From contig JAEBUN010000030.1 of assembly GCA_023014365.1 (NCBI GenBank), positions 1 to 64,000 of the forward strand: DNA of 64,000 bases, written 5' to 3'. The notes under the pieces were generated by a model, which had not been told where the DNA came from, did not search any database, and saw only the letters and a list, made by a program, of their open reading frames with translations. This document shows positions 1 to 58,151 of this stretch, one piece after another; the first letter of the stretch is position 1; each line of letters opens with the position of its first letter. Made by a program: the position numbers and the translations under genes. The DNA is from Lepiota brunneoincarnata. Lineage: Eukaryota > Basidiomycota > Agaricomycetes > Agaricales > Agaricaceae.

Positions 1-618
1 ATCTGGGAGCATTATTGCTAAAGGGAATTGGCATACGCTCATGTCCCATTTTACTAGCTGTAGTTGTTGTAGATGGCATAGTTTGGTTTGTCTGTACAGT
101 CGGAGTTGACTGTGATATCTGTGGTACTGTAGAGGCACCAGGAGGGTTCATATGAAACAAGTTTTGGTTTGTAAACGCTAAGCTTAGTGTAGAAATGGTC
201 TGACCGTCCTGGCTTTTGGTGTGCAGAATATGCGCTATGTTGCAAGCTGAGGCTGGAAGCCTTATAGTAATTCTGGGCGCAGTAGAGATTGGCGGTACGA
301 CTTCTCTCAATACTGCAACTGCTAAACTGCTCGCTGTGCTTGCAGTTATACATAGAACTAGTAGGATCTTTTCACTTTTGAGAGGTACTAGCGGCAATAA
401 GGCCTTCAGAACCTTCTGGATGATTAGAATTCCGAGTAGTTCTCTGTTTTGGGGGGTCGACCTTCCTGAGACTGCTCTTGAAGGACATTTTGGGTGACTG
501 TACGGTCTTTGCTTGAACCTTTTTCTGCTTTGCAGGTGAAAGGCAGGCCAGTGTCCAAGCCTTTTGGTGTTTGTCTTGTGAAATTCAACTGAAAACCCCC
601 CTCGCGGTGGGCTCCAGA
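1..618 (-). pseudogene. 5' part of gag of an E4-family retrotransposon (truncated by window edge)
   Basis: This stretch aligns base for base, with scattered transitions, to 56236-56849, the gag start and leader of the complete E4 copy. Recognisable gag pieces are the Ser/Thr/Pro-rich N-terminal segment and the basic start region. The frame is broken compared with the complete copy, so only short fragments stay open. The primer-site-like sequence next to the LTR (CTCGCGGTGGGCTCCA on the plus strand) is kept at about 601-616. The rest of the element would lie left of the window. It is clearly older than the 38-58 kb copy. Confidence 0.85.
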
Positions 619-23405: not shown

Positions 23406-23420
23406 AACATAACATACTTT

Positions 23421-24400: not shown

Positions 24401-24498
24401 TGCTTAACCATGTTAGGAAGTAACTGTTAAATAAAGTGACAGATCACTTATTAGTTAGTAACGAATTATGATATATAAGTAATTAGTTGTTATGTACA

Positions 24499-39096: not shown

Positions 39097-39549
39097 TGTA
39101 AGGGGACAATCCACAAACACCCCTAAGCCTCCCAGCACACTGTACATCCCCCCTTTCAAACGCTTACACCCCAAACATAACCAGAATGCACCAGAGGTCC
39201 CCTCACTGCCCAGTTAAACCCCTCCCTTCACCCTCCTTAACCCTCACCTGCTTCCTCCCATTTCCTGTAGACTTCAGACTGTTATCTTCACTCCCCACAC
39301 TCATTTTAATCACACCTGGCCTTGTGCAACACCCAGACACCACCGTCAAGCCTTGTTCAATTTATATTGATTATATAAGTCAAGTATATACATAGTTTTC
39401 GCCTGCAGGGGTTCCCTCATCCTATTCTCTTAGGATTTCCCTGCAGGTATGGACTCCCTACTTAGCTCACAGATTAATAATACTTAGGATTTCCCTGCAG
39501 TGACGTTTCGGCTCCCTGAGTTGTCCGAACCCTCCAGGTTGCCCTAACA
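39097..39549 (+). repeat. 5' LTR of E1
   Basis: TGTAAGGGGACAATCC...GCCCTAACA, 453 bp. It has TATATAAG at 39372-39379 and TATATA at 39385-39390. The word CTTAGGATTTCCCTGCAG appears twice. The C/A-rich U3 is also read as the last 38 codons of pol in the 3' copy. Confidence 0.97.
39419..39428 (+). promoter_or_regulatory. Putative E1 transcript start/self-primer
   Basis: ATCCTATTCT lies about 34 bases after the second TATATA and is the exact complement of AGAATAGGAT just inside the LTR. Confidence 0.6.
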
Positions 39550-39551
39550 GA

Positions 39552-39561
39552 AGAATAGGAT
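39552..39561 (+). other. Self-priming primer-binding site of E1
   Basis: AGAATAGGAT, two bases after the 5' LTR, pairs 10 of 10 with 39419-39428. There is no TGG-type tRNA site, as expected for Tf1/sushi-like chromoviruses. Confidence 0.65.
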
Positions 39562-39683
39562 CCCCCTAACGAGACCAGTCCGGTGTCCATAGGCCCTACC
39601 CTGTCCATAACGTGTTTTTCGACTCAGTAGCAGCCTAACACTCAGCACTCTTCTCTCCCCTCGTCCAACCTCGTCTCTCACTC

Positions 39684-40886
39684 ATGTCACAGCAAAATGC
39701 ACCGGAGAACGGGCCCTCAGACCCTTTGGCTATGATTGCCCAACTCCAGCAGGACGTGGCATCGGTGATGACTAGGCAGGCCGACTCCGAGCTGGCCCTC
39801 ACGGAAGTGATCCAGTCGATTCAAACCACCCTTCAAGAACTCTCCCAACGTCCAAAAACCCCAAATGCTCCTGACGCGACTCCACCCGTCCCCGACACGT
39901 CCCCTCCCTCTACCCAACGCACTCGCTCCTCAAAAGTCAAACCAGCGACTCCACCAGACTTCTCGGGTGACCGAACGCGTGGGAGGGCCTTCTTGAACTC
40001 CTGTAACACTTACCTACGACTCTGCCCGACTCATTTCGCCTCGGACCAGCAGAAGATACTCTGGGCTATGTCGTTCATGAAAGAGGGGCGTGCTGCTAAG
40101 TGGACGGATCAGATATTTCGGTGGGAAGATAGGAACCAAGGAGCAGAGAGGTTCCTAGATTGGAAGGACTTTCAAGGCGAATTCCGTAAGCACTTCTTCC
40201 CCGTGGACTCCGAGGCAGCTGCTGTCAATCGGCTGGAAGGTACAGAGTACTTCCAACGAAACAGGAACGTCGAAGACTACCTGGACGAGTTCCTAGAGCT
40301 TATCTCGGACTCCGGGTACAAAGATGACAAGACCATCGTTGTCAAGTTCCGTCGAGGCCTCCGCCCGGCCATACAGACCGCAGTAGCCACGATGACGGCC
40401 AACCGACCCTCGGACAATGCTCCGGAGGCTTGGTACAAGGCAGCGCAGCTCATAGATCAGAACCGAGCTGCCAACGATGCCTTCCAAGCCTTGGGGCGGA
40501 CACAAATACCCTCGGCAAAGCCCTCCGCCAACCCCTATCGCCTCACATCTGCCCCTGTCGCCCCCCTTGCCACGTCAACTTCGACCCCCTTTCCATCAGC
40601 CCGCTCCTTTGCCCACGTCACCCCCACTCCGACCAAACCCGTCCCAATGGATATTGATGCGACCAGAAAGGCCACGACGACGCCCGTAGTCTGCTACAGA
40701 TGCCACCAGCCGGGCCACGTCAAATCCGAATGCCCTAGGCGCTTCGACGTTCGCTTCTTAGACTTGGAGGAGAGGGAAGCCCTGATTCAGCAATTATTAG
40801 CCGAGAAAGACATCGTGGAAGCTCAAGGGTCATCGGAACATCGAGAAAGCGAAGACGAGACGGATTTTGTCTCAGGCGGTCGGTGA
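39684..40886 (+). CDS. gag: E1 gag
   Basis: 400 residues from the first ATG after the leader. The N-terminal coiled-coil-like segment is rich in Gln/Ala, followed by a Pro/Thr linker. The capsid region is at about 95-260 (FLNSCNTYLRLCP, W-x-D-F-x-FRKHFFP, NRNVEDYLDEFLEL). The zinc knuckle is CYRCHQPGHVKSEC at about 338-351, and the C-terminus is acidic. Length and layout are normal for fungal chromoviruses. The pol frame overlaps its 3' end in the -1 frame, so pol is probably made by a -1 shift from this gene. Confidence 0.95.
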   Translation: MSQQNAPENGPSDPLAMIAQLQQDVASVMTRQADSELALTEVIQSIQTTLQELSQRPKTPNAPDATPPVPDTSPPSTQRTRSSKVKPATPPDFSGDRTRGRAFLNSCNTYLRLCPTHFASDQQKILWAMSFMKEGRAAKWTDQIFRWEDRNQGAERFLDWKDFQGEFRKHFFPVDSEAAAVNRLEGTEYFQRNRNVEDYLDEFLELISDSGYKDDKTIVVKFRRGLRPAIQTAVATMTANRPSDNAPEAWYKAAQLIDQNRAANDAFQALGRTQIPSAKPSANPYRLTSAPVAPLATSTSTPFPSARSFAHVTPTPTKPVPMDIDATRKATTTPVVCYRCHQPGHVKSECPRRFDVRFLDLEEREALIQQLLAEKDIVEAQGSSEHRESEDETDFVSGGR

Positions 40887-43800
40887 ATAGTGTGCCCCGG
40901 TCGCCCACAGGGAGTAGGTACAGTGTATTACCCATAGACCTAATAAACGACACTGTCCCTACCCGAAACCCGATCCCTGTACAAGACACACCCCCTTTAA
41001 GCTCTTCCTTGCCTAAACGACTGAGACGGCCGAAATGGGAGCGGCGTTTGCCCCCGGTGTTCAAGATATCTTCAGCAGAGTCTCCGCGGTCGCTTCATCT
41101 GACAGTGGAGCTAGAAACGACGGACACAGCGGAACGGAAGGTCACTCAAGCCCTCCTGGACAGCGGGGCGACAAGCTGCTTCGTCGACCGCGATTTCGTA
41201 CAGAGAAATCGTCTCAACACGCGCCCCCTTTCCCAGCCCATCCCCGTCTTCAACGTTGATGGCACCGAGAACGAAGCGGGTTCAATTACGGAGGTCTTAG
41301 ACATAGTTCTCCGTTACAAATCTCACTCAGAGCGCACCACCTTGGCGGTCACATCGCTCAGAAAGCAAGACTTACTACTCGGCTTCTCATGGTTGAAGGA
41401 GCATAACCCCGAAGTAGACTGGCAGACAGGTGAAGTCGGGATGACCCGATGCCCAGATAGGTGTTGCACACTGTGTAAGGAACAGCTGAGAACTGAACGA
41501 AAGCTCCGGAAGGCTGAGATTAAAGCAATCTCGATGTGCTCGGAAGGCCCTTATCCACTCTCGGATGACGACTGGGAGGAGATTCAAGAGATCCCGGGTC
41601 TTCAACCAAAATCCGAACGAGGGACCGGAGACGGCGAACGTATCTGGGCCACTGTTCTCCGCCCGGAACCCCAGTTCATCCAAGCGACCAGCACTACCTC
41701 CCAAAGACTCGCGGAGGCCTTCCACCGCAATTCGCAACCTCCTCGGGCATCCCCTGAAATCTCCGGCCTACTGGATCCCATTCCCGAGTATCTCCGTGAC
41801 TTCGCCTCCATGTTCGAGAAAGGGTCCTTCGACTCTCTCCCGGAACAAAGGGCTTGGGACCATGCTATCGAGCTCATACCGGGAGCGACGCCTACAGGCT
41901 GCAAGGTATACCCTCTGGCCCCCTCTGAACAGTCAGAACTCGACTCCTTCATTCAGGAGAACTTAACTACCGGGAGAATCCGTGCTTCGAAGTCCCCCAT
42001 GGCCTCTCCGGTGTTTTTTATTAAAAAGAAGGATGGCTCGCTCAGATTGGTTCAAGATTACCGAGCTCTTAACGCAATCATGGTGAAAAATAAATACCCA
42101 CTCCCACTCATCTCGGAGCTCGTAAATCAACTCCGAGGGGCCAAGTATTTCACCAAGCTCGATATTCGCTGGGGTTTCAATAACGTACGGATTAAACCCG
42201 GAGACGAATGGAAAGCAGCCTTCCGCACCAACCGGGGCCTCTTTGAGCCTCTAGTGATGTTCTTCGGACTTACCAACAGCCCCGCTACTTTCCAGACGAT
42301 GATGAACGATATCTTTAGGGACCTCATCGCAGAAGGGGTCGTTGTAGTATATCTCGACGACATCCTTATCTTCACAAGGACCGTAGAAGAACATAGAAGA
42401 GTTACCCGTCGCGTTCTAGAGATACTTCGCCGCCACCGGCTCTACCTCCGACCGGAGAAGTGCGAGTTCGAGAAGACCAGGGTGGAGTACTTAGGGCTAG
42501 TCATTTCGGAAAATAAGGTGGAGATGGACCCGGTAAAGGTCGCCGGAGTACAGGGGTGGCCGACGCCTACAGACAAGCGAGAGGTCCAGGCGTTCCTGGG
42601 CTTCGTGAACTTCTATAGGCGTTTTATCCAAGATTTTTCACACTACGCTCGCCCTCTGTTTGATCTCACTAAATTGGACACTCCTTGGCGATGGGGAAAG
42701 CCAGAACATAGCGCTTTCACCACCCTTAAGGAGCTAATCACGTCCGCGCCCGTTCTCGCCTCGCCGGACACCTCCTTGCCTTTCCGGCTCGAAGCGGACA
42801 GTTCGGATTTCGCCACTGGAGCGGTACTCTCTCAGCAGTCGGAGGAAGGTAAATGGCACCCGGTGGCATTCTATTCTAAATCCCTGGACCAGGCACAACG
42901 AAACTACGAGATTCACGACAAGGAAATGCTGGCGATCATCCGAGCACTCGAGGAATGGCGGCACTTCTTAGAAGGCGCCCCCCACGTCGTGGAAATCTGG
43001 TCAGACCACCGAAACCTAGAGTATTTCATGACAGCTAAAAAACTTAATCGCCGCCAAGCTCGCTGGTCACTCGTCTTGGCTCGCTTTGACTTCAAGCTTC
43101 ACTACCGGCCGGGTAAATCGATGGGGAAAGCCAACGCATTGTCCCGCCGTGCAGACCACGGCCCCGGAGATCGTGACAACGAAGATGTCGTCCTCTTGAC
43201 GAGGGAGAAGCTCGCGATCCGAGCCCTCGAAGGAATTCAAGCCGCCGGCGAAGAACAAGTCCTTCTACGAGACATCCGAGCAGGGAATCGCTCCGAGACT
43301 GCAGAAGAGGCAGTCGCGAATTCGGCCCGCAGGCTCAAGGAGTCCTCTTCTAGAACCGTACACTCATCCGAGTGGTCTAATGTGGACGGACTGCTATTAT
43401 TCCGAGGCCGGATCTACGTCCCGAACAGCAACGACCTCCGACGCCGCATCGTGGCCCTCTGCCACGATTCCCCGATCGGTGGGCACGCAGGTCATTGGAA
43501 GACACTCGAATTGGTCTCCCGAAACTACTGGTGGCCGCAGATGTCTCGCTTCGTAGGTCAGTATGTCTCCACATGCGACTTATGCCTCAGAACAAAGCCC
43601 CATCGTCACCTCCCTACCGGAGAACTTCACCCCTTGCCTATTCCCAAGTCCCGATGGGATACCATCAGCGTTGACTTTATTGTAGAGCTTCCTCCTTCGG
43701 CTGGGTATGACGCCGTGATGACCGTAGTCGATTCGGCCTCCAAGCGAGCCCATTTCATCCCCACACACACCACGGTGACGGCCGAAGGAGCCGCTCGGCT

Positions 43801-44929
43801 ATTCCTGCACAACGTATGGAAACTACATGGTCTCCCCAAACAGGTAGTGTCCGACAGAGGCCCCCAGTTCGTCGCAGAGTTCACCAAGGAACTTTACCGG
43901 AAGCTAGGAATTAAGGTAGCGAGCACGACGGCATGGCACCCCCAAGCAGATGGTCAAACGGAAAGGGTTAATCAAGAATTAGACCAATACCTTCGGATCT
44001 TCGTCAACGAGAGGCAGGACGACTGGCTAGATCTCCTCCCACTGGCCGAATTTCAACACAATAATCATATCCACGCCTCGACCCAGCACTCCCCCTTCCT
44101 TCTCGACACTGGTAGACACCCCCGGATGGGCTTTGAACCTCACCAACGACCTTCTCGTCTAGAAACGGTCAACGAATTCACTAACCGGATGAAAGCGACG
44201 CTGGAGGAAGCCAAAGCTGCCTTGGTACGGTCTAAAGACGAAATGGCGAGATACTACAACCAACGCCGCACCCCAGCACCTACCTTCAAACCCGGGGACC
44301 GAGTTTACTTGGACGCGAGTGATATTCAAACCACCCGACCGTCCAAGAAGCTGTCACACCTCAGACTAGGCCCCTATACAGTAGAACGACGGGTCGGCGC
44401 CAACGCCTACCGCCTGAAACTTCCCCAGTCCATGCGACGCCTCCACCCAGTCTTCAACATCGTAAAACTTCTCCCTGCGCCAGAGGACCCATTCCCAGCC
44501 CGACAGCCACCCCCACCACCCGATCCAGTAGTCATCGACGACGAGAAGGAGTGGGAAGTGGAAGAAATCCTAGACAGCCGATTCGTACGACGAAAACTCA
44601 AATTTTTGATCAAATGGAGAGGTTTCGGTCGCGAACATAACTCCTGGGAAGACTCGGCTGACGTACGTGCACCGGAACTCGTTAAGAAATTCTACGAGCA
44701 ACACCCCGGAGCCCCACGCTTCATACGAGCTCTCCAGTTCGGTTCCATCCCATTCCAACCACTCCCAACCATCACGTCGAGTCGCCGCGATCCTGAAGGG
44801 GGGGTAGATGTAAGGGGACAATCCACAAACACCCCTAAGCCTCCCAGCACACTGTACATCCCCCCTTTCAAACGCTTACACCCCAAACATAACCAGAATG
44901 CACCAGAGGTCCCCTCACTGCCCAGTTAA
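40883..44929 (+). CDS. pol: E1 pol: protease, RT, RNase H, integrase, chromodomain
   Basis: 1348 residues from a GTG at 40883. No ATG sits there, and the frame is open further upstream across at least 90 bases of gag in the -1 register, so it is likely translated by frameshifting. Protease LLDSGATSCF (DSG 93-95). RT KLDIRWGFNNVRI, FFGLTNSPATFQ, YLDD at about 490. RNase H LEADSSDFATGAVL and HDKEMLAIIRALEEWRHFL. Integrase H-H-C-C finger at about 855-900 and a D,D,E core (SVDFIVE, VSDRGPQF, TERVNQELDQ). Chromodomain at about 1220-1270 (WEVEEILDSRF...FLIKWRGFGREHNSWE). The last 38 codons are encoded by the 3' LTR. No internal stops. Confidence 0.95.
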   Translation: MNSVPRSPTGSRYSVLPIDLINDTVPTRNPIPVQDTPPLSSSLPKRLRRPKWERRLPPVFKISSAESPRSLHLTVELETTDTAERKVTQALLDSGATSCFVDRDFVQRNRLNTRPLSQPIPVFNVDGTENEAGSITEVLDIVLRYKSHSERTTLAVTSLRKQDLLLGFSWLKEHNPEVDWQTGEVGMTRCPDRCCTLCKEQLRTERKLRKAEIKAISMCSEGPYPLSDDDWEEIQEIPGLQPKSERGTGDGERIWATVLRPEPQFIQATSTTSQRLAEAFHRNSQPPRASPEISGLLDPIPEYLRDFASMFEKGSFDSLPEQRAWDHAIELIPGATPTGCKVYPLAPSEQSELDSFIQENLTTGRIRASKSPMASPVFFIKKKDGSLRLVQDYRALNAIMVKNKYPLPLISELVNQLRGAKYFTKLDIRWGFNNVRIKPGDEWKAAFRTNRGLFEPLVMFFGLTNSPATFQTMMNDIFRDLIAEGVVVVYLDDILIFTRTVEEHRRVTRRVLEILRRHRLYLRPEKCEFEKTRVEYLGLVISENKVEMDPVKVAGVQGWPTPTDKREVQAFLGFVNFYRRFIQDFSHYARPLFDLTKLDTPWRWGKPEHSAFTTLKELITSAPVLASPDTSLPFRLEADSSDFATGAVLSQQSEEGKWHPVAFYSKSLDQAQRNYEIHDKEMLAIIRALEEWRHFLEGAPHVVEIWSDHRNLEYFMTAKKLNRRQARWSLVLARFDFKLHYRPGKSMGKANALSRRADHGPGDRDNEDVVLLTREKLAIRALEGIQAAGEEQVLLRDIRAGNRSETAEEAVANSARRLKESSSRTVHSSEWSNVDGLLLFRGRIYVPNSNDLRRRIVALCHDSPIGGHAGHWKTLELVSRNYWWPQMSRFVGQYVSTCDLCLRTKPHRHLPTGELHPLPIPKSRWDTISVDFIVELPPSAGYDAVMTVVDSASKRAHFIPTHTTVTAEGAARLFLHNVWKLHGLPKQVVSDRGPQFVAEFTKELYRKLGIKVASTTAWHPQADGQTERVNQELDQYLRIFVNERQDDWLDLLPLAEFQHNNHIHASTQHSPFLLDTGRHPRMGFEPHQRPSRLETVNEFTNRMKATLEEAKAALVRSKDEMARYYNQRRTPAPTFKPGDRVYLDASDIQTTRPSKKLSHLRLGPYTVERRVGANAYRLKLPQSMRRLHPVFNIVKLLPAPEDPFPARQPPPPPDPVVIDDEKEWEVEEILDSRFVRRKLKFLIKWRGFGREHNSWEDSADVRAPELVKKFYEQHPGAPRFIRALQFGSIPFQPLPTITSSRRDPEGGVDVRGQSTNTPKPPSTLYIPPFKRLHPKHNQNAPEVPSLPS
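44793..44808 (+). other. E1 polypurine tract
   Basis: GAAGGGGGGGTAGA immediately before the 3' LTR is the usual primer for plus-strand synthesis. It lies inside the pol reading frame. Confidence 0.75.
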
Positions 44930-45261
44930 ACCCCTCCCTTCACCCTCCTTAACCCTCACCTGCTTCCTCCCATTTCCTGTAGACTTCAGACTGTTATCTT
45001 CACTCCCCACACTCATTTTAATCACACCTGGCCTTGTGCAACACCCAGACACCACCGTCAAGCCTTGTTCAATTTATATTGATTATATAAGTCAAGTATA
45101 TACATAGTTTTCGCCTGCAGGGGTTCCCTCATCCTATTCTCTTAGGATTTCCCTGCAGGTATGGACTCCCTACTTAGCTCACAGATTAATAATACTTAGG
45201 ATTTCCCTGCAGTGACGTTTCGGCTCCCTGAGTTGTCCGAACCCTCCAGGTTGCCCTAACA
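44809..45261 (+). repeat. 3' LTR of E1
   Basis: 453 bp. No difference from the 5' LTR was seen on reading. Followed by AATCC and the rest of the E4 LTR. Confidence 0.97.
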
Positions 45262-45485
45262 AATCCCTCCGGAGAGCGTTCTGATAGCTTGGTTCACTAA
45301 GCTTAGTGATAATGAGCTGGTTTGAACACTTCCGAGGCTCGAATATCCTCAGTTCGGTCGAACTGGCTACTACGGGATATAGTACCAATCCTCTATAGAG
45401 TTCTTTAATGATATAGCCAATGATTCTATGTAGAGAATCGTTCCGGAGTACGGAATTCATGTATAGGCGTGAAATCGGCGTATCA
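45262..45485 (-). repeat. E4 3' LTR, part B (after E1)
   Basis: Continues 57928-58151, ending GCGTATCA. It carries TAAGCTTA at 45298. Directly followed by the E4 polypurine tract. Confidence 0.95.
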
Positions 45486-45497
45486 TCTCCCCCTAAC
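45486..45497 (-). other. E4 polypurine tract
   Basis: On the minus strand GTTAGGGGGAGA abuts the LTR start TGATACGCCG, the proper place for a plus-strand primer. A near-identical 19-base copy lies inside the element at 48236-48254. Confidence 0.7.
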
Positions 45498-45812
45498 CAA
45501 ATTGCTGACTGTCCTCAGTCATTATCTCCTTCAAATTTGCAGTATCTGAGTCTCTCTGACGCGCTCTATGGTCTAGAACGTTCACCAGCTTCGAGGGTAG
45601 CGCACTTTCGCTAAGCTTATTTCAGAATGATGTCATGTCACCGAGTTTAAATGTATAGATCAACTTCTTGTTGCTATAGCTTAAATTTTTATCTCTTTAT
45701 TGGGTCTTTTAAATGTCCCAAGGTCTCGTTTCATCTCCTTCGTTCTCCCTCTCACTTCTTACTCATCTATTGTGCTCGCATATTCACTTTCCAACGCTCA
45801 CTTCTATCAACA

Positions 45813-47843
45813 ATGGACAGAAACACGCGCAGCAGCAAACGTGCTTGCTACGAGGAGGACTCGGACTCTTCTTCCAGTAAGTAGAGTTCGAGTTATAGTT
45901 TTGTCTGTTTTCTTAACACTGTTTTCAGGCTACCCTGGGCCGAGCAACGCCTCAACGGCTTCCCAAGGCACGCCTTCATCATCGATCGCGCAACGTAAGT
46001 CGCGTTTTCCCCTGTTCTCGTTGTCTTTACTTATGTTTTCTCTACTTTTAGGTCTCACTATTCGCCTCCTGGCACGTCGCAACCTCCTACCTCAATGGGA
46101 ACCACCAGCACCGCGTACTAGGAGGGCTAGAGGAGGGTGAGGAGCTCGAGGAGCTTGCGGAAATCATCAGGTGGGTGTGGCAAGGACCCCTCCTCCACCA
46201 TACTCTCCGCCCCGCGAACCAACTCCTCCACCGGCCTCTCCTTTGTACGCTCCAGTGCCAAGACGCATGATTTCCATCGCGTCGTTGTGCAATCCAACCG
46301 ATGAGCGCTCTGCCGGATTTTCCGCAGAACCCTCGTCAGGTATCCCCGTTGGTGGGCCCTCTGGTGGATTATCCACAGAGGCTTTGTCCAGTTCAATGTC
46401 ACTGCCCCCTCTCGCCATCTCTCTGCGCACCCTGGACAAGGAAGACTCGCTGGTGCTCTCTCCCTTGGGTATTGCATCAGGTTCGGAGGTGCCGGGCCCT
46501 TCAACAAACCGGCCTTCTTCCCCCATACTCTCTTCTGCTACTTCAACGCGTAAGCTTAGTCGTTTTTCACGATATATTTGTTCTTTCCGCTGACTTCTGC
46601 TTTAGCGCATATACCAGCTGCCTTTAAAGGCAAACAGAGGGCGAAATCATCGACGCCGCCCCCTCTCCCCTTATTCCTGGCGGGTTCTAACTCGTCATCG
46701 CGTTCTCCAGTCCCTGAGATCTCTCAAGCCGACCTCTTCAAAATCTTTAGCTGGTCCTCTTCTCTGGATGGGCAACAGGTGCTGGCTTCGCCTAGGTGCC
46801 CAACACCATCACCACCTCACTTAGCTGGCACTCCAGTCGCGTCTCCTGCAAGCGCCGTGGAGATTTCTCCTTCTCCAGATTTGGAGCTCCTTCTGGAGCC
46901 TTCGCCTGCCCCTCAAGAACCGACTTTTGTTTTTCAAGACGCGTTCTTAGCTTCTCCGACCCCCGTCCTTTCTCGTTTGCCTAGCCCGGTGGTTCCGGAG
47001 ATCCCTCAAGAGTCCCCTCATGCTGGCCCGTCGCGTCAACAACGCGTCCTTTCGTCCAAGAAGAGTTCCAACACGCGGACGAAGAAATACGTTCCCCGGG
47101 CTCGCGTTCGGCGCTCTGAGGCCGAAATTATTCGGGACCATGGATACCGGCACCCAGTCCCGCTCTTTTGTGAGGACTTTCCTAGGCTGCTGGCAGCTAG
47201 CCAGCTTTCGGTACATTCTCCAAGTTTTCTCGTGGTTCCTTACTGATGGCTTTGACATCTGCTCCAGTACGTGCCACCTCGGTCTCAGTGTCCTTCTTGC
47301 GCTGCTCGTAAGTTGGAGTGCGAGCCTCTGGGCAAGGGTAAGAAGTGTCGCAGCTGCGACTTGTACAACTACCCTTGTACCTTCGTGGACCATCTCCGGG
47401 TTTCGGCCGGCGTTGCGAACGCCCTGGTCACATCCTCACTGACCAGTGAATACCGTAAGTTTCTCTGTTCACTATTTTTCCCTTTTCTTATTCTCTTTAT
47501 TTTTCTAGATCTGGCCGCGTTCGCGCGTGTTGTGTCCTCTAGCTTGGTCAGCCTGGAGGTGAACCGCGTCGCTTACAAGGCTTCAGCGTTTCACCACCGC
47601 CGTGTAGTTTATCAATTCGTCCAGGAGATGCAAGCTACCAGGACTGCCTTGGACGGTAATGACGTGGCTTTTGTAGAGATGGGTATGGCCGACTCCCTTG
47701 AAGACGTTCGGGCGTTCTTTGAGTTCGCCAACAACTTTCCGGGGGTCCCGACATACGAGGAATTCGAGGAGCTCAAATCGCTTCTCTTCCTCGCTTTCCC
47801 GATGACTCAGGATCCGGAGTCTGTTCTAGAAGACCTTGAGTGA
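45813..47843 (+). CDS. Antisense gene A in E4: Zn(II)2Cys6-type, Pro/Ser-rich protein with introns
   Basis: Plus strand, opposite to E4 gag-pol. Supported exons: 45813-45876, 45929-45994, from 46052, to 46549, 46606-47210, 47268-47454 and 47509-47843. The introns between them are 52-57 bp with GT-AG ends and keep frame. The join between 46130 and 46171 is unsure (a 34-bp intron would be needed). The product is a Ser/Pro-rich N-terminal half, a basic stretch (KKSSNTRTKKYVPRARVRR), then six cysteines with spacing CX2CX6CX8CX2CX6C (CPSCAARKLEC...CRSCDLYNYPC), and a helical acidic C-terminus. The cluster fits fungal zinc binuclear DNA-binding domains, so a nuclear regulator is inferred. The intron at 46550 begins with GTAAGCTTAG, a copy of the E4 palindrome. 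Confidence 0.72.
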
Positions 47844-48528
47844 TCTCTGCGCCTAGTTTACTTCTTGGATGTAGTATATAATCTTGTCATGTATATACAT
47901 CCCAATAGTCATCTTGTTGTTCCTTGTCTCCTACTGAGTTAAGCTAAACTGTTTTTGACTTTCTTGTCATCTCCTAAAGCTAAGCTAAAGACCTCCTGGG
48001 AGACTCCTAAGCTAGTTTAGGTTGCCAGTCACTTATATACTCATTATATGCCTCTCTGATCTATCAGTGATGTTTATTGATATCTCAGCGCGCCGTGACC
48101 CGCAACGCGTAGTGACCCGGCTCATCCGCTCCAGTTTTCTTACAAGCCCGAACCAGCCTGTCCACGCTGTTCGAAAAAGCTCCTTGCGAAAAAGCTCGCG
48201 TCAAACTGTCAAACTGAAGCGCCCCTTGGGACCCATCTCCCCCTAGCCAAATTGAAATCGGTGCCCTCACCGTTCCATCAGAATCCCTGTGCACACTGAT
48301 AACCGCAAGACCCTGGTGACATGTTACCTAATAAGGCAACTGTGGTTCAGCAAGTCTGTCGAAGGCTGGCTACTCAAGATTACAGGTTTCCTAGGCCCCT
48401 CAGGTCATAAGCTTAGGGTGGAGGGTGCTCTTCATCCACTCGTTATGATTCATCATCACTGCCTACGGCCTTTTCTTATAAAAGCGAGGGAGCGACGTCT
48501 CATTCTAGCAGACACCCTTTGCAAGAAA
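47844..48528. other. Spacer between antisense genes A and B, with a second polypurine-like tract
   Basis: No gene seen. At 47940-48020 there are repeated AAGCTAAG-type words. 48236-48254 repeats the E4 polypurine tract and its flank (CCCCCTAGCCAAATTG) with one difference in 19 bases. TAAGCTTA is at 48408. A TATAAAA box for gene B may be at 48478-48483. Confidence 0.55.
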
Positions 48529-49875
48529 ATGGCTTCTTCTATCCCCCATCTCCAGGTTGAGCTCGACGATCTCATCAGCAACGCCAAAGGTCGTCTTCAG
48601 CGCCTGCAAAACGGCCAAGTCACTCTTCCCCTCGTCGAGAAGGCTCTCCTTGCGTTCGACGCCCCTGGGGTATGTCTACTCTTTCCATGCTTCTCTCGCC
48701 GTTTCCAAATCATTTCTAGTCTGCTTATATTGAAGCGTTATCGGAGGATAATGAGGCTATCAAGCTTCATGTCAACCAGGACTACGTCTTCCGTATCCGC
48801 AAGCTCTACAAAATTTACCAAAACAACTACCATTCATCTTATGAGATGCCCGCGATCTATAAGGCGCTCTCTGAATGCTGTAGCCGCATTAATCGCGTTC
48901 GTTCCGAAGAATCCCACAAATCCAGGACCAAAGAGGCTCAGAACCCATCGTCCACGACTGGCTCTACTTCCTCCAACATTGCCGAAGGCTCTGCTGTCCC
49001 CAAACGCGTAAGCTTAGCGTTCTTTTGGCTCCAATCGTCTCCTCATGTATAAGCTTAGCCTCGCAAAGGTTGCAAGGCCCCTGTCTCTGCTGCTGTTGTG
49101 GTAGACACCGATACCGAGCTTGCTGAGAGTATGCCCAGTGCTTCCAACTCCCGAGCAACTGGTGCTGACACGGTAATATAGCTGCTTCTCAACCTATTAC
49201 ATTGGCTGAGATAATCGCTCACCTCCAGGACATGATGGTCGATGAGGAGGTCTCTCAAGCTATCGTCGAAGAGGTTTGTGTAGTCTCGCCTTATCGCAAG
49301 CGTCGTTTGTCTACCTCCGACGTGGTGCGCCAGCTCCACTCCCCCCAACCACTGATTCTGACTTCCTCCCTCTTTAGGAGACCGTCAAAAAGTCCTCATC
49401 GTCTAAAGGCACCGTCCGTCTTCTTTCCTATTGTCAAGTTCCCAATATGAACACTAAACACTGCTGTTATGTCCGGGCTGAACAGGTTCTAGCCAAAGCC
49501 AGCGCCAATACTGCCAAGCGCGCCCGTACCGAGTCTGCTTCCAATGAGCGCACCTTTGCGGGCTTATCTGGTGGGCAATTTCTCACTTCTCTTCGCTAAG
49601 CTTAACGGTACTGACACTTCTCCCAGGCAGCTCGTTTGCTCCAGGAACTCCAAAACCTCCTGTCTCACTCTTGCGACGAGTACGAATCCGAATCTCGCGG
49701 TGACGACGCTCGGTCAGTCAAATGCGACCTCAATTCGCTCAGCCGGGACTTCATCGATGCTATTCCCTCACTCGAAGCCAACTTAAAAAGGTTCCAATTC
49801 CTCATTCAAGAGCGCATCCATCTCAAAAGCCTTTTGCGCAACCTTTCCGACTTGGACAAGTCCTCCCCCGCTTAA
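48529..49875 (+). CDS. Antisense gene B in E4: helical protein of unknown function, with introns
   Basis: Plus strand, convergent with E4 integrase (77 bp between stops). Firm exons: 48529-48669, 48720-49007 and 49059-49172, all in phase 0 with introns of 50 and 51 bp. Probable later exons are 49229-49273 and a last one ending in TAA at 49873-49875, with uncertain joins between. The N-terminus is a Leu/Glu/Gln-rich helix (LQVELDDLISNAKGRLQRLQNG), the middle is basic and Tyr-rich (RIRKLYKIYQNNYHSSYEMP), and the end is a coiled-coil-like helix (LNSLSRDFIDAIPSLEANLKRFQFL). No family recognised. The 49008-49058 intron starts GTAAGCTTAG and ends ATAAGCTTAG, and the stop codon also lies in a TAAGCTTA copy (49873). 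Confidence 0.65.
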
Positions 49876-49951
49876 GCTTAACGCTTTTACAGTCCCCAGG
49901 ATAGTTTTCCTTCGATAAGTAGATAGTTCTGTCCACAATATCAGGTTTTTT

Positions 49952-52057
49952 CTATCCCTCCAACTCTTCTGGCTCCCATCTGTCACTAGGCTCATCCTCA
50001 GTAGTCTCCTCCAGGGTCTTCAGTCCCTCTGGCGACAGATCTAACAACTCTTGTAACTCCAGCGGCAACAGCATATGTTTTCTGGCTAAGCAGGGAATTA
50101 CTCTGAACGCCACCACTTTATTCTGCCATACAGAGCCATCCAACTCTGCCAGGATATATGATCCTCCCTTCGATCTAGATATGACCACCATGGGTCCTAG
50201 ATACCTGGGTTTCATCTTCCTGTCTGCTGAGCTCTCTATAGCTGTGTTTCTCACTAATACTAAATCTCCCGGGCCAAAGCGATAATCTTTTATCTTATGC
50301 GCTGCTTGTCGTTCCATCTCCCAAGCCTTGCTAAGCTTAGTGTCTGAAACACGCTGACGCACCTCCTCAACATGCCGAACATGTTTTGCCAAAGCCTGAG
50401 CTCGGTATCCTATTAACTTGGCCGTGGTTAAGTACTTATTTGGTAGTTGTACTAGCCAAGTGGCCTCTTTGACATCCAGAGGTAGCGTCGGGTGCGCTCC
50501 GGTTACCAGAAAGTACGGGGAACACCCCATTCCTTTTCTAATGGTTATCCGATCTGCCCACATAACGTGCGGTAGGTGCCAATACCACTTTTTGACATCT
50601 CCATCTGTAGCTTTGTACAACATTTGCCGCACATCCCAGTGGGCTCTTTCAATAATCCCGTTTGCTTTGGAATTGTAAGGAGATATCGTTACTCCTTTTA
50701 TCCCATATTTTTCTTCCAGCCATCGAACAGCTTTCTTAAATGGAGAACCGTTGTCTGTGACAATCTTCACTATACAGCCCCATCTGCAAATGATATCTTC
50801 AAATAACCACTGCGCAATCGAACTAGCATTCTCTTTTCTCAAAGCTTTTGCCTCCATCCAGGACGACAGTCCACACCTTCCATGCACAATATAACTACAC
50901 CCATTAGAACTTGGCGTCATATGTAGTGTGTCCACATGTAGCACTTGGAATATCGACGGCGTGGGCGTTACTATTGGCGGCGTCTCGATGATCGCCTTTT
51001 GTCGTTGCTGGCATAGATGGCACAATTGCACATACCAAGTTACGTCTCCTTCAACTTCTGGCCACCAGAACCTCTGCATTATAAGCTTAGTGGTTGCGTA
51101 TATTCCCCTGTGTCCTAGGAAGTCGTGGCTGGCTCGCAACATATACATACGTTGCTCCTTATCCACTACTAGCTGATGCTGACCGCTAGGGCTCATCCTA
51201 TACAGTCTCCCCTCTTCGTCCAAGAAGAAATGCTCCACCATATGCTTAAGCTTACGCAGATCCGGCTCATCCAAGCCTTCAGCTGCGCTACTGCCCCCTG
51301 TTTTCAGGTATTCCCTGACTTTGGGTATTCTTCCGTCTTGTATTCGCGCTGTATCTGTCCTACGCGATTCATCATACGCTTCCTCTATCTCGGTCAACTT
51401 TTCCTCTTCGAAATCTGGCACTAGCCTGACATCCGTCATTAAGCTTAGTACTTGTCGGTGGTTTTCTGGGCACGCTGGGTCTTCTATAACCCTAAGCTTA
51501 GCCTGTTGTTCATCCAAGTACTCTTCCCGAGCTTGATCCAGCTCATACTCAAAATCATACACATCACGCGCCAGACCCTGGTAGAAGCCAGAGCGACTGT
51601 CGATCTCATCACAGAAGGCTTCCAAGGGTAACGGATCTGCAGCCCCCGGATCTCCTTTGATCAACTCGAACTCCTCTCCCTCGTCCTTGGATCCGTTGTC
51701 GAAACGACAGGCTGTCTCATCACCGGGATAGTAACGTCGTCTGGACAGTCCATCCGGCCCAAATGTCTTTCCTTCTTTGTGTACTAGCGTGAAGTGGAAC
51801 AATCTAATGAAGTCCACCCAATGGTTTACAGTAGCGTTCGGGAGTTTTCCTGGGTTGTTTAACATCCCAAAGAGAAACTTCGCGTCTGTTTCCACTACTA
51901 GATTTCTCGATCCCCACAACAAATATTTCTCCTGTTCCAGCACCATTCTTAAGCCGCATAGCTCTCGCTTGGGCTGAGAATACCTCTGCTGTCTCTTGTC
52001 CAACAATATTGACCCAAACTTCACATAATGTATGTATAAGCTTAGCGTCTTCTCCAT
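49952..52057 (-). CDS. E4 integrase with C-terminal RNase H part
   Basis: 701 residues on the minus strand. RNase H end: [23 protein letters not shown] and [13 protein letters not shown] (residues about 25-80). Integrase zinc finger [14 protein letters not shown]...CHLCQQ at about 310-350. The catalytic core has D at about 374 (LHVDTLHM), D at about 434 (VTDNGSPF) and E at about 470 (NGIIERAHW). The C-terminus has the GPxxLVRN-like GDLVLVRN fold. No chromodomain is visible, unlike E1 and E2. The frame begins by overlapping the RT frame by 254 bases. The shift from RT to this frame falls at a TAAGCTTA copy (52037), which suggests a small indel there in this copy. Confidence 0.9.
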
Positions 52058-53705
52058 CTCGCTGATATATGTAGTATCCCACCGCCCTCCATGAGGTATC
52101 CACGGCTACTACTATGGGTTGTTTACTTGGGAATTCAGGGTTCCTGGTCAGGAAACAGCGTTGAATCGCATCTTTCAGCTCCTGCTGTGCTTTCCGTTCA
52201 TTTTCTCCCCATTCAAACTCTTGCCCTTTCTTAAGCTTTTTGTATAGAGGTGCAGCAATGGCTATGAACTTCGGGATATGATTCCTGCAGCGCATAGCTG
52301 TTCCTAGAAAACCCCTTAGCTCGGAGACATTCTCGCAATCCCCCCATCTTAATATCTTCCCAATGGTGTCTGTGGCAGGCAACTGTCCTTTATAAGAGCA
52401 TTCAAAACCCACTACGGTGATTTCATCAGCGCAGATAGTCGTCTTGGGCCCAGAGAAGGTTCCTCCTACGTATTTCATCCTCTGTAGAATCCTATTGACT
52501 GTCTGCATGTGTTCCCATACAAATTGTCGGATCCCTGGGTTTTCTTTCAGTGTCTCTTCCGTGCCATCTGGCAACTCATATCTAGTTTTGGGTCCTCTGA
52601 TAGGTACATCATCTATGTACGGCATTGTGTATTCTGGTATCTCACTGGTTAGGATCGCTGTTACATCCTCATGAAATATAGGCACTGAATTGGTCCATCC
52701 CATGGGTAACGTCACTAAGCGTAGCGCTCCAAAAGGCGTCTGGAATGTTGTTAAGTCCTGAGATGACTCAGCTAACAGTCGTTCGTCATAGCCAACATAT
52801 AGATCCAGAATGCCTCCGCAAGCTCTGCCTGCGAAGTGCATTGCCAAATCTTCCGTTGCTGGCGGCAGTCCTGAATGCGCTATCGTCACTTTGTTCAGCG
52901 GTTCCAAGCTGTGTACCAGTCTCAAACTTTTCCCATCTTTCTTCACCACACAGAACCATCTGGATCTATAGGATGAGTTCGACGGCTCGTATACACCAGC
53001 ACTAATCTTTCTCTTTATAATGGCACAAACTTCATCATAGATCGCTGGTGGAATCGGAATGGGTTTCTCAACCCACGGAGTATGTTCTACCATCGGTATC
53101 TCGATCAGCGGGAAGAAATCTTCCCTAAAACATCCCTTTTCCTCATCTGTCCAGGCGAATGCCTTTTCTTGAAGCATCATGATGTGGTGCATCAGCTTTC
53201 TTTCCTCTGGCCACAAGAAATCCCCTGCATGGGCTTCGTCCAGCTTAAGCTTACGCTCCTCCGTATATCTGCCTGTCGGGACAAACTCTGGAGGATGCAC
53301 ACTAAGCTCAGGCATTTCTGCCAGTGGGTCCCCTTTTATTTCTCGTTTTATCCTGAATCTCTCCGGTAGATCACCCAACACTGGCCTCACTTTTAAGGCT
53401 ACTGGTTTATATTTCTTCCCAGCCAGGCATTGTACCGTATCTTTGTCATCTTCTTCTGTTTCGAAGACAGTTATTCCCTGGTCCTCTGTGCCCTGCGCGT
53501 TGGCTATGCGTCCTAGGCACAATAACGCCGTTGCTTTATCTTCCTGTGGGCAGTCCTCATCGTGTATGACTCGGTCAATGAACATTAGCTGTAGCTCGGC
53601 CTCTGAGAAGCTTCCTTTTGCTAAGCTTAGTGTTTGTGCGACGACAGGGCCCTTCTCATCATCATAGTCTATTATACAAGCCACCTCTCCTTGTCCCTCA
53701 GTCAA
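51804..53705 (-). CDS. E4 reverse transcriptase
   Basis: Minus strand, 633 residues. RT motifs: [50 protein letters not shown], and the catalytic box [10 protein letters not shown] at about 362, followed by [16 protein letters not shown] and a connection region. The YIDD box and PMGWTNS mark a gypsy lineage distinct from the chromoviruses here. The first in-frame codon is not ATG. The frame is open from about 53735, just after a TAG inside the palindrome at 53743. After about 52040 the frame leaves the conserved RNase H sequence, which continues in the overlapping ORF. Confidence 0.9.
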
Positions 53706-53767
53706 CTCATCGAGGTTTCTTGAAAATTTTGACTGTTTTCCCTAAGCTTAGGAGGATTACACTCTCC

Positions 53768-54826
53768 TCAAGCATAAGTTGGTAACACAGCCCTTTCTCT
53801 GGTATTTGGGTCCGTAATAACCAAGGTTTGCTCGCCACTGGTGCTATTCCTGACTTCGCTAGCCGTCATTACATCAAAGGGTCGTCCCAGGAGTACTCGA
53901 TACGCGGGGCTACGAACGATGTGAACTTGCAAATAGATTGTGACTCCCCCACAGGTAAAGCCTACATTCTTTGCCAATCCACAAGTCTTTTCAACCTGCC
54001 CATTCGCACTCTGCAAATTTATCGTAGTATCTGGGTCCCAAGAAACTTGACATGCAATCGCCGCTTCCTGACTCATGGAGACGATCTGTGACCCGCTATC
54101 TAGCAAGGCCTCTTCCTGCCGAATCCCATTTATCAGAGTTGGCACTACTCTCAACAACTCGCATTCTTTCGCAATAAACACTTGCTGTCCCCTGTCTCTT
54201 CGGGGCAGTGACTCCAAGTACTGCATGATTGGATCCTGAGCTACCCAGGCTTGGGTTGCCGAGCCTTCTCGGAGCACCGTATCATACTTCCGAGAGCCAT
54301 CTGCCAACTCCGTTATCATGACTTGTACATTAATCTCTATATCTTCTGTATTATCGTCCCCGGGCCCTACTCCTGCTATTAAGCTTTGACTCGTGGGTAC
54401 CCATTTTCTCATAATGCGCTCTCTATAAGCATTCCTGTATATCGGTGACAAGGCCAAGAGTTCTCCATGCGATACTGAGGCTTCTCGCTTCAATACCCTG
54501 CTGAGTACTTCCTCAACATCGACATTCCTCTCTATAGGGGCCTGGTGCTTATATGCAGGCTCCTTCTTGGATGGTTCCATCCTTCTGACAGGTAGTGGTG
54601 GTACCTCAACGACCGGGCACAGTGGTTTCACATTTCTATATGGTAATTCTCCTGCTGCGGCACGCATTGGTTTCTCCGTTGTCTGCCCTATTTCCTCATT
54701 TTCTGATTCTTCTGATCGCTCGGAATCCGACGCGTCCTCAGGAGTCTGTCCTCTGGCGAAGGCGACCTTCTTCTTCAGAGCCGGCTCCTTCCTCGAACCC
54801 TTTAGAAACCCGACTCCGAGTTCCAA
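53768..54826 (-). CDS. E4 aspartic protease region
   Basis: 352 residues, overlapping the gag end by 25 bases in another frame. The Pro-rich, charged linker is followed by the retropepsin active site ALLDSGSQIVSM at about 240 and an ILGRPF-like box (RVLLGRPFDV) near 325, both in the right order and distance. It processes the Gag and Pol proteins. It ends in TGA, and the RT frame opens about 30 bases later. Confidence 0.85.
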   Translation of the reverse strand: MELGVGFLKGSRKEPALKKKVAFARGQTPEDASDSERSEESENEEIGQTTEKPMRAAAGELPYRNVKPLCPVVEVPPLPVRRMEPSKKEPAYKHQAPIERNVDVEEVLSRVLKREASVSHGELLALSPIYRNAYRERIMRKWVPTSQSLIAGVGPGDDNTEDIEINVQVMITELADGSRKYDTVLREGSATQAWVAQDPIMQYLESLPRRDRGQQVFIAKECELLRVVPTLINGIRQEEALLDSGSQIVSMSQEAAIACQVSWDPDTTINLQSANGQVEKTCGLAKNVGFTCGGVTIYLQVHIVRSPAYRVLLGRPFDVMTASEVRNSTSGEQTLVITDPNTRERAVLPTYA

Positions 54827-56763
54827 GTCTTCGCGCCACTCCTGGTGTCCAAATACTGGCTTGCCGAGGGCGTACCATCCATCAAACCACTAAGCTTAGC
54901 CTGTATCTGGGCCAATTGCTCGGCCAAAGACTGTATCTCGACATTATCATCCTTTCTGGTCATAAGCTTAACCTTTGGGGCACTCCCGGCGTGGATGGCA
55001 ACTGTCTCTAACATTTCCATGTGCTGCTTCAGACGGTGGACTTCTTCTTCCGCTGGTGACCTTTGGTTTTCTGACCTCGGGAACGCTCTCTGTGCAAACA
55101 CCGCTGACGTTGGCACTTGCGGTAACTCAGGCTCAACCTCCGGCAGTTCTGGTATCTGAACAAAGAGTTGTCCCTTTGTCGCATAGTACTTTGCCACTTT
55201 CTCTTTAATAGGCCCTTCTCCTCGAGGGATACTCGAGCCATCTCCCATATATATTTTGTTCCCTTCGACTCTAATTCGGCCAGCTTGTTTATCCGCCTCC
55301 ATGTCCGGGCAGAATAACCAACTATGCCCTAATAACCAGCAGTAGAAACACTTGCGATCGGAAAGCGACCCTGCCGACCCACTTCCGGTATTCCTCTGAG
55401 CGTGATTATAACTGGCATGATTATGTCCTTCTTTCGCCAAACTCTCTAAGTATGATTTTAAGGTATGCCCCTGGATATTCATGAGGTCCTTAAGCTCAGC
55501 GAGACCGCCTGCCATCTGCGAGACTTCATCCTGAAACTTCTGTTTTAAGCTTTGCAGCTCTCGCTTTACTACAGGGTCATAAGTCCCTGTTCCGGACGTC
55601 GCAGGTGGATGGCTCATTGATGCCAAGTTCACCGGCCTTGAATCCTGATGAAGGGATCGCATAAGTGTTTTGCCAATCGAAATTTTGACAGCTTTATCCA
55701 CGACGATCCTCCAATCATAGGGGTCCTCTTCACGTAAATCCTTCGCAGTTAGTGCCGACCCATCGCTCGCAGTTCTACGCGCCCCGGTGATCGCTAATCT
55801 CGCATTGAGTATGTCCTGGAACACGGAGTCCAGTGCGCTTGTAAATAACTCGACTAGCTCTCGGTTCGAGACTACCGCCGGCGACTTCAGGCACTTCTCT
55901 GCTTCTAGGATGAATTGCCTTTTGAAGTCTAAGACTCTATGCTCCTCATTCATTGCAATGCCTCTACTCTCTGTGCAGAGTTCCCTCAATCATCGCACTG
56001 AGCCCTGCTCGGCTGCCACAGTCTCGGGATACTCTTTCTTCAATCTCTCTACGAAGCCTGTCCAGCTTCCTGCTGGGAACTCCGCAAAACTCATCCACTC
56101 TTCACGGATATCCTGGTCCACATATGACACTGCCCAATTTATCCTTTCTGCATCGTCCGTCGTCTTCGTTATCGTGAAGAGCCATTCAAGCGTCCAGAGA
56201 TAATTTCTCAATGTCTGTGGTTTTGATGCATCCCATCTGGGAGCATTATTGCTAAAGGGAATTGGCATACGCTCGTGTCCCATTTTTCTAGCTGTAGTCA
56301 TCATAGACGGCGTAGTTTGGTTTGTCTGTACAGTCGGAGTTGACTGTGATATCTGTGGTACCGTAGAGGCACCAGGAGGGTTCGTATGAAACAAGTTTTG
56401 GTTTGTAACCGCTAAGCTTAGCGTAGGAACGGTCTGGCCGTCCTGGCTTTCGGTGCACAGAATATGCGCTATGTTGCAAGCTGAGGCTGGAAGCCTTAGT
56501 GTAATTCTGGGAGCAGTAGAGGTCGGCGGTGTGACTTCTCTCGATACTGCAACTGCTGAACCACTCGCTGTGTTCGCAGCTAGAGAGTTAACGGGATCTT
56601 TTCGCTTTCGAGAGGTACTAGCGGCGATGAGGCCTTCAGAACCTTCTGGACGATTGGAATTCCGAGTAGTTCTCTGTTTTGGGGGGTTGACCTTCCTGAG
56701 ACTGTTCTCGAAGGACGTTTTGGGTGACTTTACGGTCTTGGCTTGAACCTTTTTCTGCTTCAC
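54802..56763 (-). CDS. gag: E4 gag with one in-frame TGA
   Basis: One frame of 654 codons broken by TGA at 55992-55990, giving pieces of 257 and 395 residues. The first codon used, at 56763, is GTG. The frame stays open upstream toward the primer site and I see no ATG there. The first part is basic at the N-terminus, then Thr/Ser/Pro-rich, and ends in a capsid-like helix (LRNYLWTLEWLF, W-x-x-FVERLKKEYPE). The second part continues capsid helices and has a CCHC knuckle, CFYCWLLGHSWLFC, at about 214, and a coiled coil at the C-terminus. The TGA follows CGA-TGA-TTG. Mutation and readthrough are both possible. Confidence 0.85.
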
Positions 56764-56829
56764 AGGTGAAAGGCGGGCCAGTGTCCAAGTCTTTTTGGTG
56801 TTTGGCTCGTGAAATTCAACTGAAAACCC

Positions 56830-56847
56830 CCCTCGCGGTGGGCTCCA
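56830..56847 (-). other. E4 tRNA-type primer-binding site
   Basis: On the minus strand TGGAGCCCACCGCGAG starts two bases after the 5' LTR. It would pair with a tRNA ending CTCGCGGTGGGCTCCA. I could not assign the tRNA. This differs from the self-priming sites of E1, E2 and E3. Confidence 0.65.
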
Positions 56848-56849
56848 GA

Positions 56850-58151
56850 TGAAAAGGTATAAACTTTCATAGGTTTTAATATAGATAGGGGGCTCGTTTT
56901 CACTAAGCTTAGCCGCTATTCGATAAGCTTAAGCTAATACAAGTGGAATGAGATAGATAATGAACAGTTTCGTCTTTTAGGGTGTTCTGGGGGTGCGTTC
57001 TGACAGCGAAATTCAAGAGAGTAGTGTTTTTTAGAGGTTAACGAACAGCCGTTGAAGTTATCTTAGCCGTACGGTGCAACAATGAAAGGACAATCCCTGT
57101 CAATTCAAAGCGCTGGGTCTCTGGTCTCTGGTCTCTGGTCTCTGAACTCTGGTCTCTGTCTCTGTCTCTGTCTCTAGCACTCTGGAACTCTAAACTCTGA
57201 ACTCTGGTCTCTGTCTCTGTCCCTGGGTTGGTCGACAACCGAAGAAATCACACTTAACGACGCACACTAAATAGCCCTCTGAAACCGTTCTTGATCACGG
57301 CTCGCAGACTTGCGTGTGGAAGCGGGGGTGAGACCTCCCCCTTCTCCACGAACAAGTGCGACCGTATTTATATTGTTTAGATACATACGAGAGATAGTAA
57401 ATATGAAATAGAAAACAATAAGCTTAATTGTTACAGGCACTGTAGAACATTTTGGAAGGTTTGGCAGCATTTCTACCTCACCCTGGGTTATGGGTTTTTC
57501 TCTGATTAACGAATGGCAATCCAGCCAGACGTGCTCCGTGCTCGGCTGCATTATTCTGCGTCCACGCGAGCGCGTTAAGTTTCCGGATCAATTATGATCG
57601 GAATGTATAGCAGATGGACAATCCCTTGATCCGTTGTAATTAATCTCAGTTAAGCAGAATGCCAAAGTGCCGGGACCCACAAAGCACTCGTTAATTAGGA
57701 GTCTTTGATGTTTCTAGGGTTTTGGGCATCGGGTATTGCCTCCCGAACGTTGGACGTTCCGTTCCGTGGTCCGGTCATCATTATTGAACTCGCTATAGAC
57801 GTAATACGCCTGCAACAGCCGCTAGGTACATTCTTTTATGTTCAAACGCATTCGGGTTCATCAGAAAACTGCTCGTAAGGTCCCTGGATGCGACCGGGGT
57901 ATACTCGATAGGCTATGTAGAGTCCTGAATCCCTCCGGAGAGCGTTCTGATAGCTTGGTTCACTAAGCTTAGTGATAATGAGCTGGTTTGAACACTTCCG
58001 AGGCTCGAATATCCTCAGTTCGGTCGAACTGGCTACTACGGGATATAGTACCAATCCTCTATAGAGTTCTTTAATGATATAGCCAATGATTCTATGTAGA
58101 GAATCGTTCTGGAGTACAGAATTCATGTATAGGCGTGAAATCGGCGTATCA
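56850..58151 (-). repeat. E4 5' LTR, complete
   Basis: 1302 bp, TGAAAAGG...GCGTATCA on the plus strand. It has TAAGCTTA at 56904, 56924, 57419 and 57964 and the TCTCTG tract at 57117-57225. It differs from the split 3' LTR at only a few positions (for example CATAG/TGTAG near 56868 and TCGAC/TCAAC near 57232). Confidence 0.96.
57117..57225. repeat. TCTCTG microsatellite in the E4 5' LTR
   Basis: GGTCTCT and TCTCTG units, the same order as at 38278-38392. Confidence 0.85.

Follow-up and report, generated by a model that had tools for sequence, protein, structure and literature searches.

The first 64,000 nucleotides of contig JAEBUN010000030.1 of Lepiota brunneoincarnata (the window, hereafter) contain a Ty3-type long terminal repeat (LTR) retrotransposon of ~14 kb, belonging to a family that we call E4. 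Its assignment to the Ty3 type comes from LTRs with TG...CA ends, a short target duplication, a polypurine tract and protease, RNase H and integrase zinc-binding domains; its reverse transcriptase and integrase core domains score below the Pfam cut-offs. Its two LTRs show 12 differences over 1323 aligned bases (7/1091 plus 5/232) and the insertion is therefore young. Positions 1-1905 are occupied by another E4 copy, 90% identical to the first, and between pol and the 3' LTR of the complete element lie two antisense genes, designated A and B. Dispersed through all of this DNA is an 8-base perfect palindrome, TAAGCTTA, which is the subject of this analysis.

Exact counting gives 32 copies of TAAGCTTA in the window, where it is the most frequent 8-mer, and both the number and the regional distribution are those of the original prediction: five copies at 1-1905 (all five corresponding to copies in the complete element), four in the split 3' LTR, seven in the antisense region, 12 in the gag-pol region and four in the 5' LTR. 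Every copy falls within 15,871 bases of E4 DNA, with none in the remaining 48,129, as had also been claimed, and eight other stretches of the window, each tested separately, likewise have none. In a single 12.9-kb segment (45262-58136), 24 copies are observed against an expectation of 0.10-0.16 under Markov models of order 1-3 with the motif masked, or 0.20-0.56 when the motif is left unmasked, which bears out the proposed enrichment over a Markov background. The copies are irregularly spaced, from 20 to 1857 bp apart, and their flanks show a mild symmetric preference for C at -1 and for C or G at -3. No tandem repeat contains motif copies and a tandem-repeat origin was rejected.

Across the whole genome (55.6 Mb in 95 contigs) there are 5370 copies of TAAGCTTA, compared with 842, 419 and 675 copies of the control 8-mers ATTCGAAT, TTAGCTAA and AATCGATT, respectively, and 2011 copies of an extended form, CTAAGCTTAG, against 39. 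Clustering of the genomic sites was judged on the first 100 of the 5370, all of which lie in the first 876 kb of contig C1: 96 of these fall in eight clusters totalling 53 kb and four are isolated. The clusters are known by site positions alone, and spacings such as 20, 41, 72, 193, 750 and 1209 bp recur in them as in E4. Equal abundance throughout the genome, which the original prediction had named as its undoing, is therefore not what is seen, and the conclusion that the motif is private to E4 is well supported.

To ask how well the motif is kept, 64 loci of the same genome (L006-L069) were compared with E4, of which 63 could be aligned (L068 could not) and 21 of the 24 motif sites had data. 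Most of these loci are best-matching copies and therefore young, with the four most distant differing from E4 by 9-12% outside the motif. Across the 63 loci none of 3304 motif cells is changed, compared with 4.4% of other cells. Since most mutations in this genome hit CpG, the expectation was calculated by trinucleotide context, which lessens the CpG artefact: 100.4 changed motif cells and 27.7 variable columns out of 168 would be expected, and none of either is observed (P ~6e-14 with columns treated as independent, a value that is indicative only, since the columns were so treated and the copies are related). The absence of change holds both outside gag-pol (83.8 changes expected) and within it (19.4 expected). 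We infer retention of the motif by the replicating lineage rather than its repair in dead copies. There is also some turnover of sites, as the subfamily copies L065 and L069 carry an extra TAAGCTTA at the equivalent of position 47981, where the window has TAAGCTAA.

Comparisons at single sites do not discriminate on their own. At pol site 51440, where 100 of the 123 copies found with up to three mismatches were listed, there are 105 mismatches, 45 of them at four CpG bases and 55 at one lineage-shared position. For the LTR pair 56904/56924, 100 of 340 copies show 66 single mismatches, none of them in the 16 motif bases, with only four different variants represented. At LTR site 57419 there are 512 copies with exact flanks, compared with 547 for a neighbouring control; of 39 for which letters were obtained, 38 are intact and one is changed. 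Among the copies of pol that were listed, internal stops are mostly TGA and mismatches are enriched at CpG, suggesting that the cytosines of E4 DNA are methylated and deaminated in this fungus.

The 12 gag-pol sites bear on what is being conserved. Eleven lie within listed open reading frames (ORFs), in either a K-L or an L-S-L frame, and the twelfth (53743) lies between ORFs; the earlier claim of several reading frames thus stands for two of them, with no site in the third (stop) frame. In the antisense region no motif overlaps a mapped exon, whilst four coincide with gene signals, three of these being apparent splice sites and the fourth a stop codon. Because sites occur in two reading frames, in LTRs and in intergenic DNA, an origin as a by-product of codon or peptide preference was rejected. 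Given that sites occur in apparent introns and intergenic DNA as well as in LTRs and two gag-pol frames, and that the motif is unchanged in 63 loci, the view that the constraint acts on DNA rather than on protein is well supported, as originally proposed.

The E4 pol protein has relatives in agaricomycete fungi: the matches listed (120 out of 348) include proteins from Cyclocybe, Armillaria, Candolleomyces, Galerina and Mycena. No DNA of E4 relatives from other species was found in viral_contigs or genome_contigs. We asked whether the pol residues of 11 chosen relatives would permit the motif at the six pol sites shown, of which 52037 was dropped owing to two overlapping ORFs and five were scored. 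Only 3 of 55 site-relative pairs would do so (P0001-P0003 at 51082) and the motif array therefore seems specific to the E4 lineage.

Which protein might read such a motif? The product of antisense gene A is under purifying selection and has a cysteine cluster, C-x2-C-x6-C-x8-C-x2-C-x6-C, in which 209 of 210 Cys codons are kept and which is present both in the window and in the homologue at L068. Zn2Cys6 domains (PF00172) have the spacing C-x2-C-x6-C-x5-12-C-x2-C-x6-8-C, which the six conserved cysteines of gene A fit; matches to PF00172 score 13.6 and 15.9 bits, below the gathering score of 21. A model of the zinc-cluster exon gave weak fold matches solely to Gal4-type DNA-binding domains, the matched chains being zinc-cluster DNA-binding domains. 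When a 190-amino acid ORF that includes an intron read in frame was used instead, 18 weak fold matches were obtained, none of them a zinc-cluster protein by title. A PDB sequence search with the window sequence of gene A found no match, and one with the gene A alignment matched four haemoglobin chains as well as MAS5, which we attribute to chance. The protein database yielded no homologue with a single-sequence query and one 99-amino acid fragment (93% identity) with the alignment. We regard the gene A product as a likely zinc-cluster DNA-binding protein.

The second antisense gene, B, has ratios of nonsynonymous to synonymous substitution (dN/dS) of 0.35-0.73 in four pieces without stops; the two that contain stops give 0.55 and 1.55. 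Where its pieces match Pfam at all they fall short of the threshold (E 0.014-0.098), and no domain is recognised in them; the gene seems to use two motif copies as splice sites, and a third contains its stop codon.

The locus that could not be aligned, L068 (G000:C60:118373-126372), carries in its first 5750 bases a homologue of gene A flanked by direct repeats (513-1094 and 4936-5536), which are degenerate and 76% alike. Neither TAAGCTTA nor an alternative motif was found there. By eye no pol is seen among its ORFs, no domain search having been made; a neighbouring ORF seems to resemble a histidine kinase. The locus is possibly a non-autonomous LTR element.

Table 1. Features of the two E4 copies in the window, with positions of all copies of the palindrome
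Feature	Position	Strand	Remarks
E4 element, Ty3-type LTR retrotransposon	38014..58151	-	Interrupted by nested element 39097-45261; CCGC common to flanks
3' LTR, outer part	38014..39096	-	3 motif copies
Nested chromodomain Ty3 element	39097..45261	+	Splits 3' LTR; lacks the motif (0 copies) and serves as internal negative control, outside the E4 system
3' LTR, inner part	45262..45485	-	1 motif copy
Polypurine tract AGGGGGAGA	45486..45494	-	By inspection
Gene A (antisense), coding exon	46171..46549	+	First mapped; 5' end of gene may differ
Gene A, next coding exon	46606..47209	+
Gene A, exon with C-x2-C-x6-C-x8-C-x2-C-x6-C cluster	47268..47439	+
Gene A, C-terminal helical exon	47518..47843	+	dN/dS 0.20 (strongest purifying selection)
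Gene B (antisense), several short exons	48532..49875	+	Provisional; stop codon within motif at 49873
pol, RNase H and integrase zinc-binding domains	49952..52057	-
pol, probable reverse transcriptase part	51804..53705	-	RT_RNaseH_2 match below cut-off
Aspartyl protease domain	53768..54826	-
gag-like ORF, by position	54802..55989	-	dN/dS 0.23 (purifying selection); no domain above cut-off
Putative primer-binding site region, begins TCTGGAGCCC	56826..56849	-	By inspection; no tRNA matched
5' LTR, TG...CA	56850..58151	-	4 motif copies
Motif, older E4 copy	179..186		Internal
Motif, older E4 copy	673..680		LTR
Motif, older E4 copy	693..700		LTR
Motif, older E4 copy	1187..1194		LTR
Motif, older E4 copy	1733..1740		LTR
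Motif, 3' LTR	38068..38075
Motif, 3' LTR	38088..38095
Motif, 3' LTR	38583..38590
Motif, 3' LTR	45298..45305
Motif, between 3' LTR and gene A	45612..45619
Motif, gene A	46551..46558		Overlaps apparent 5' splice site (GTAAGC)
Motif, between genes A and B	48408..48415
Motif, gene B	49009..49016		At probable 5' splice site
Motif, gene B	49050..49057		At probable 3' splice site
Motif, antisense region	49597..49604
Motif, gene B	49873..49880		At stop codon
Motif, pol	50332..50339		K-L frame
Motif, pol	51082..51089		K-L frame
Motif, pol	51247..51254		K-L frame
Motif, pol	51440..51447		L-S-L frame
Motif, pol	51493..51500		K-L frame
Motif, pol	52037..52044		Overlap of two ORFs
Motif, pol	53246..53253		K-L frame
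Motif, pol	53622..53629		L-S-L frame
Motif, between listed pol ORFs	53743..53750
Motif, gag-like ORF	54891..54898		K-L frame
Motif, gag-like ORF	54963..54970		K-L frame
Motif, ORF adjoining 5' LTR	56413..56420		L-S-L frame
Motif, 5' LTR	56904..56911
Motif, 5' LTR	56924..56931		20 bp from neighbour
Motif, 5' LTR	57419..57426
Motif, 5' LTR	57964..57971

Two repeat arrays were seen in the window. The only tandem array in E4 is that of a heptamer, GGTCTCT, with ~15 copies at 57116-57219 within the 5' LTR, and does not contain the motif. At 23176-32322 there is a repeat array with 15 copies of a different palindrome, CATGCATG, often ~105 bp apart and following the repeat units.

A perfect, element-private palindrome that is kept at two dozen places regardless of coding points to a sequence-specific reader of duplex DNA, and the simplest candidate for that reader is the element's own zinc-cluster protein. 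With moderate confidence, we propose that TAAGCTTA is an operator-like site private to E4 and selected as duplex DNA, with gene A encoding its most likely reader and with anti-silencing or auto-activation as the outcome. The gene A protein, through its Zn2Cys6-like cluster and helical C-terminal part, would sit on the palindrome as a symmetric dimer; the two dozen or so sites along the ~14-kb element would let it pick out E4 DNA almost exclusively; and the E4 DNA so bound would be kept accessible or active, as plant VANC does for VANDAL. More tentatively, these sites might amount to a self-recognition code, in which the antisense zinc-cluster protein would coat integrated E4 by way of its dispersed palindromes, even those inside gag-pol, and so keep the element active or exempt from silencing.

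Several observations weigh against a role for gene A or against constraint on the motif. Gene A is linked to the motif solely by residence in one element, and its diverged homologue in L068, which may have another target or be dead, exists without it. Extension of the motif to CTAAGCTTAG is restricted to 13 of the 32 window copies, where most had been said to extend. At pol site 51440 alone, in the 100 copies listed, the motif changes no more slowly than its non-CpG flank (two changes in eight motif positions versus three in 16 other flank positions), so that the claim of a motif kept whilst its flanks drift stands for the element as a whole but not for this site. The two points on gene A would suit a host DNA-binding protein (an activator, insulator, silencer or chromosome-structure factor) that reads a motif whose sites E4 has accumulated, gene A doing something else. 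We consider this rather unlikely: among the first 100 genomic sites the motif is rare outside clusters, and its four isolated occurrences in 876 kb of contig C1 would leave a host factor little to bind in host DNA there, whilst the rarity of compatible residues in the pol relatives does not suggest a conserved host factor common to them. The last point, together with the youth of the loci compared, is what would be expected if there were no selection at all and a CpG-free motif, CpG-directed mutation and recent expansion from a few founders merely mimicked conservation. Of the explanations considered this is the one that we credit least, and scarcely at all, since no change is seen where the trinucleotide-matched expectation is 100 and since copying and expansion cannot account for a motif that recurs some two dozen times in a single element amid dissimilar flanks.

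Other products of E4 could read the motif in place of gene A. Gene B, gag or integrase might do so, for example in packaging, tethering or integration near existing copies, and gene B has a coding signal in its four stop-free pieces, whilst its stop codon and its apparent splice sites fall on motif copies. This seems to us improbable, given the lack of above-threshold Pfam matches for gene B; moreover, perfect symmetry would be superfluous for a role in RNA, and the motif copies are found throughout the element, both LTRs included. The coincidence of motifs with three apparent splice sites and a stop codon of the antisense genes could mean that the motif works in RNA, or in splicing or termination, rather than as duplex DNA, TAAGCTTAG offering the splice-like words GTAAGC and CTTAG as well as stop codons. 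We regard this as very doubtful: the gag-pol region holds 12 of the 32 sites, all but one within ORFs and in two frames, and each LTR holds four; the base preceding the motif is mostly C and not the G required for GTAAG; and the full 8-bp symmetry would be left unexplained.

How does E4, with gene A as the putative reader of its palindrome, compare with known systems? HIP1 of cyanobacteria is, like the E4 motif, a highly repeated octamer palindrome. It is spread over whole host genomes, whereas the E4 motif clusters in one element family, with none in 48.1 kb of other window DNA, and shows no HIP1-like enrichment over the host genome at large; the likeness suggested earlier is therefore superficial and a HIP1 analogue was rejected. 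Fungal Zn2Cys6 (Gal4-type) regulators often act as dimers on palindromes and bind CGG-type triplets. Gene A shares with them its cysteine spacing, short helices and weak sequence and fold matches, but differs in falling below the Pfam cut-off, in a proposed target without CGG and in its location on the antisense strand of a retrotransposon.

The VANDALs of Arabidopsis are MULE-type DNA transposons, whereas E4, as an LTR retrotransposon, is not of that type, and VANC is not known to be a zinc-cluster protein. As far as the excerpted sources go (PMC5735166, with PMC10398659 as a further source on this anti-silencing system), VANDAL resembles E4 in being a transposon family with many copies of a short family-specific motif that is rare elsewhere, recognised by an element-encoded protein, which is proven there and proposed here. 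According to the same excerpt, the VANC21 motif, YAGTATTAY, is asymmetric, present in one orientation, densely arrayed (often in tandem repeats), mainly non-coding and subject to fast gain and loss (PMC5735166); that of E4 is a perfect palindrome, dispersed, also found in coding DNA (11 sites in gag-pol ORFs), free of tandem repeats and strongly conserved. The VANC likeness of the original prediction holds for the element-enriched motif and gains from the candidate reader that E4 itself encodes, with its Zn2Cys6-like cluster; it does not extend to the layout of the motif.

Plant retrotransposons are known to carry antisense genes in the position of gene A, downstream of pol and before the 3' LTR, and the excerpts consulted describe their function as unknown (PMC7264820, PMC11963269); DNA binding is predicted for those of Retand (PMC11963269) and a regulatory role has been proposed. 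They have a different domain from gene A and the excerpts mention no element-private dispersed motif, whilst about half of Retand elements, unlike E4, have tandem repeats in the antisense-gene region. Amongst fungi, Boty/BcGypsy1 of Botrytis has, like E4, an additional antisense gene (brtn), again with no motif mentioned in the excerpt (PMC8365987). Among the titles and openings of abstracts listed, our literature search found no description of the E4 element, its motif or the gene A protein; text matches to TAAGCTTA number 810 papers, and the 20 listed are unrelated by title.

Overall, E4 has a real, strongly conserved, element-private palindrome and a plausible element-encoded reader, from which we infer its function: gene A has the look of a regulator that binds DNA, and a conserved candidate target for it is present in its own element. 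If this proposal is correct, E4 would supply a function for the antisense genes of LTR retrotransposons and, as far as the literature search shows, would be both the first retroelement and the first fungal counterpart of VANC, independently evolved. Sequence-specific self-recognition by transposons would then extend from plant DNA transposons to fungal retroelements.

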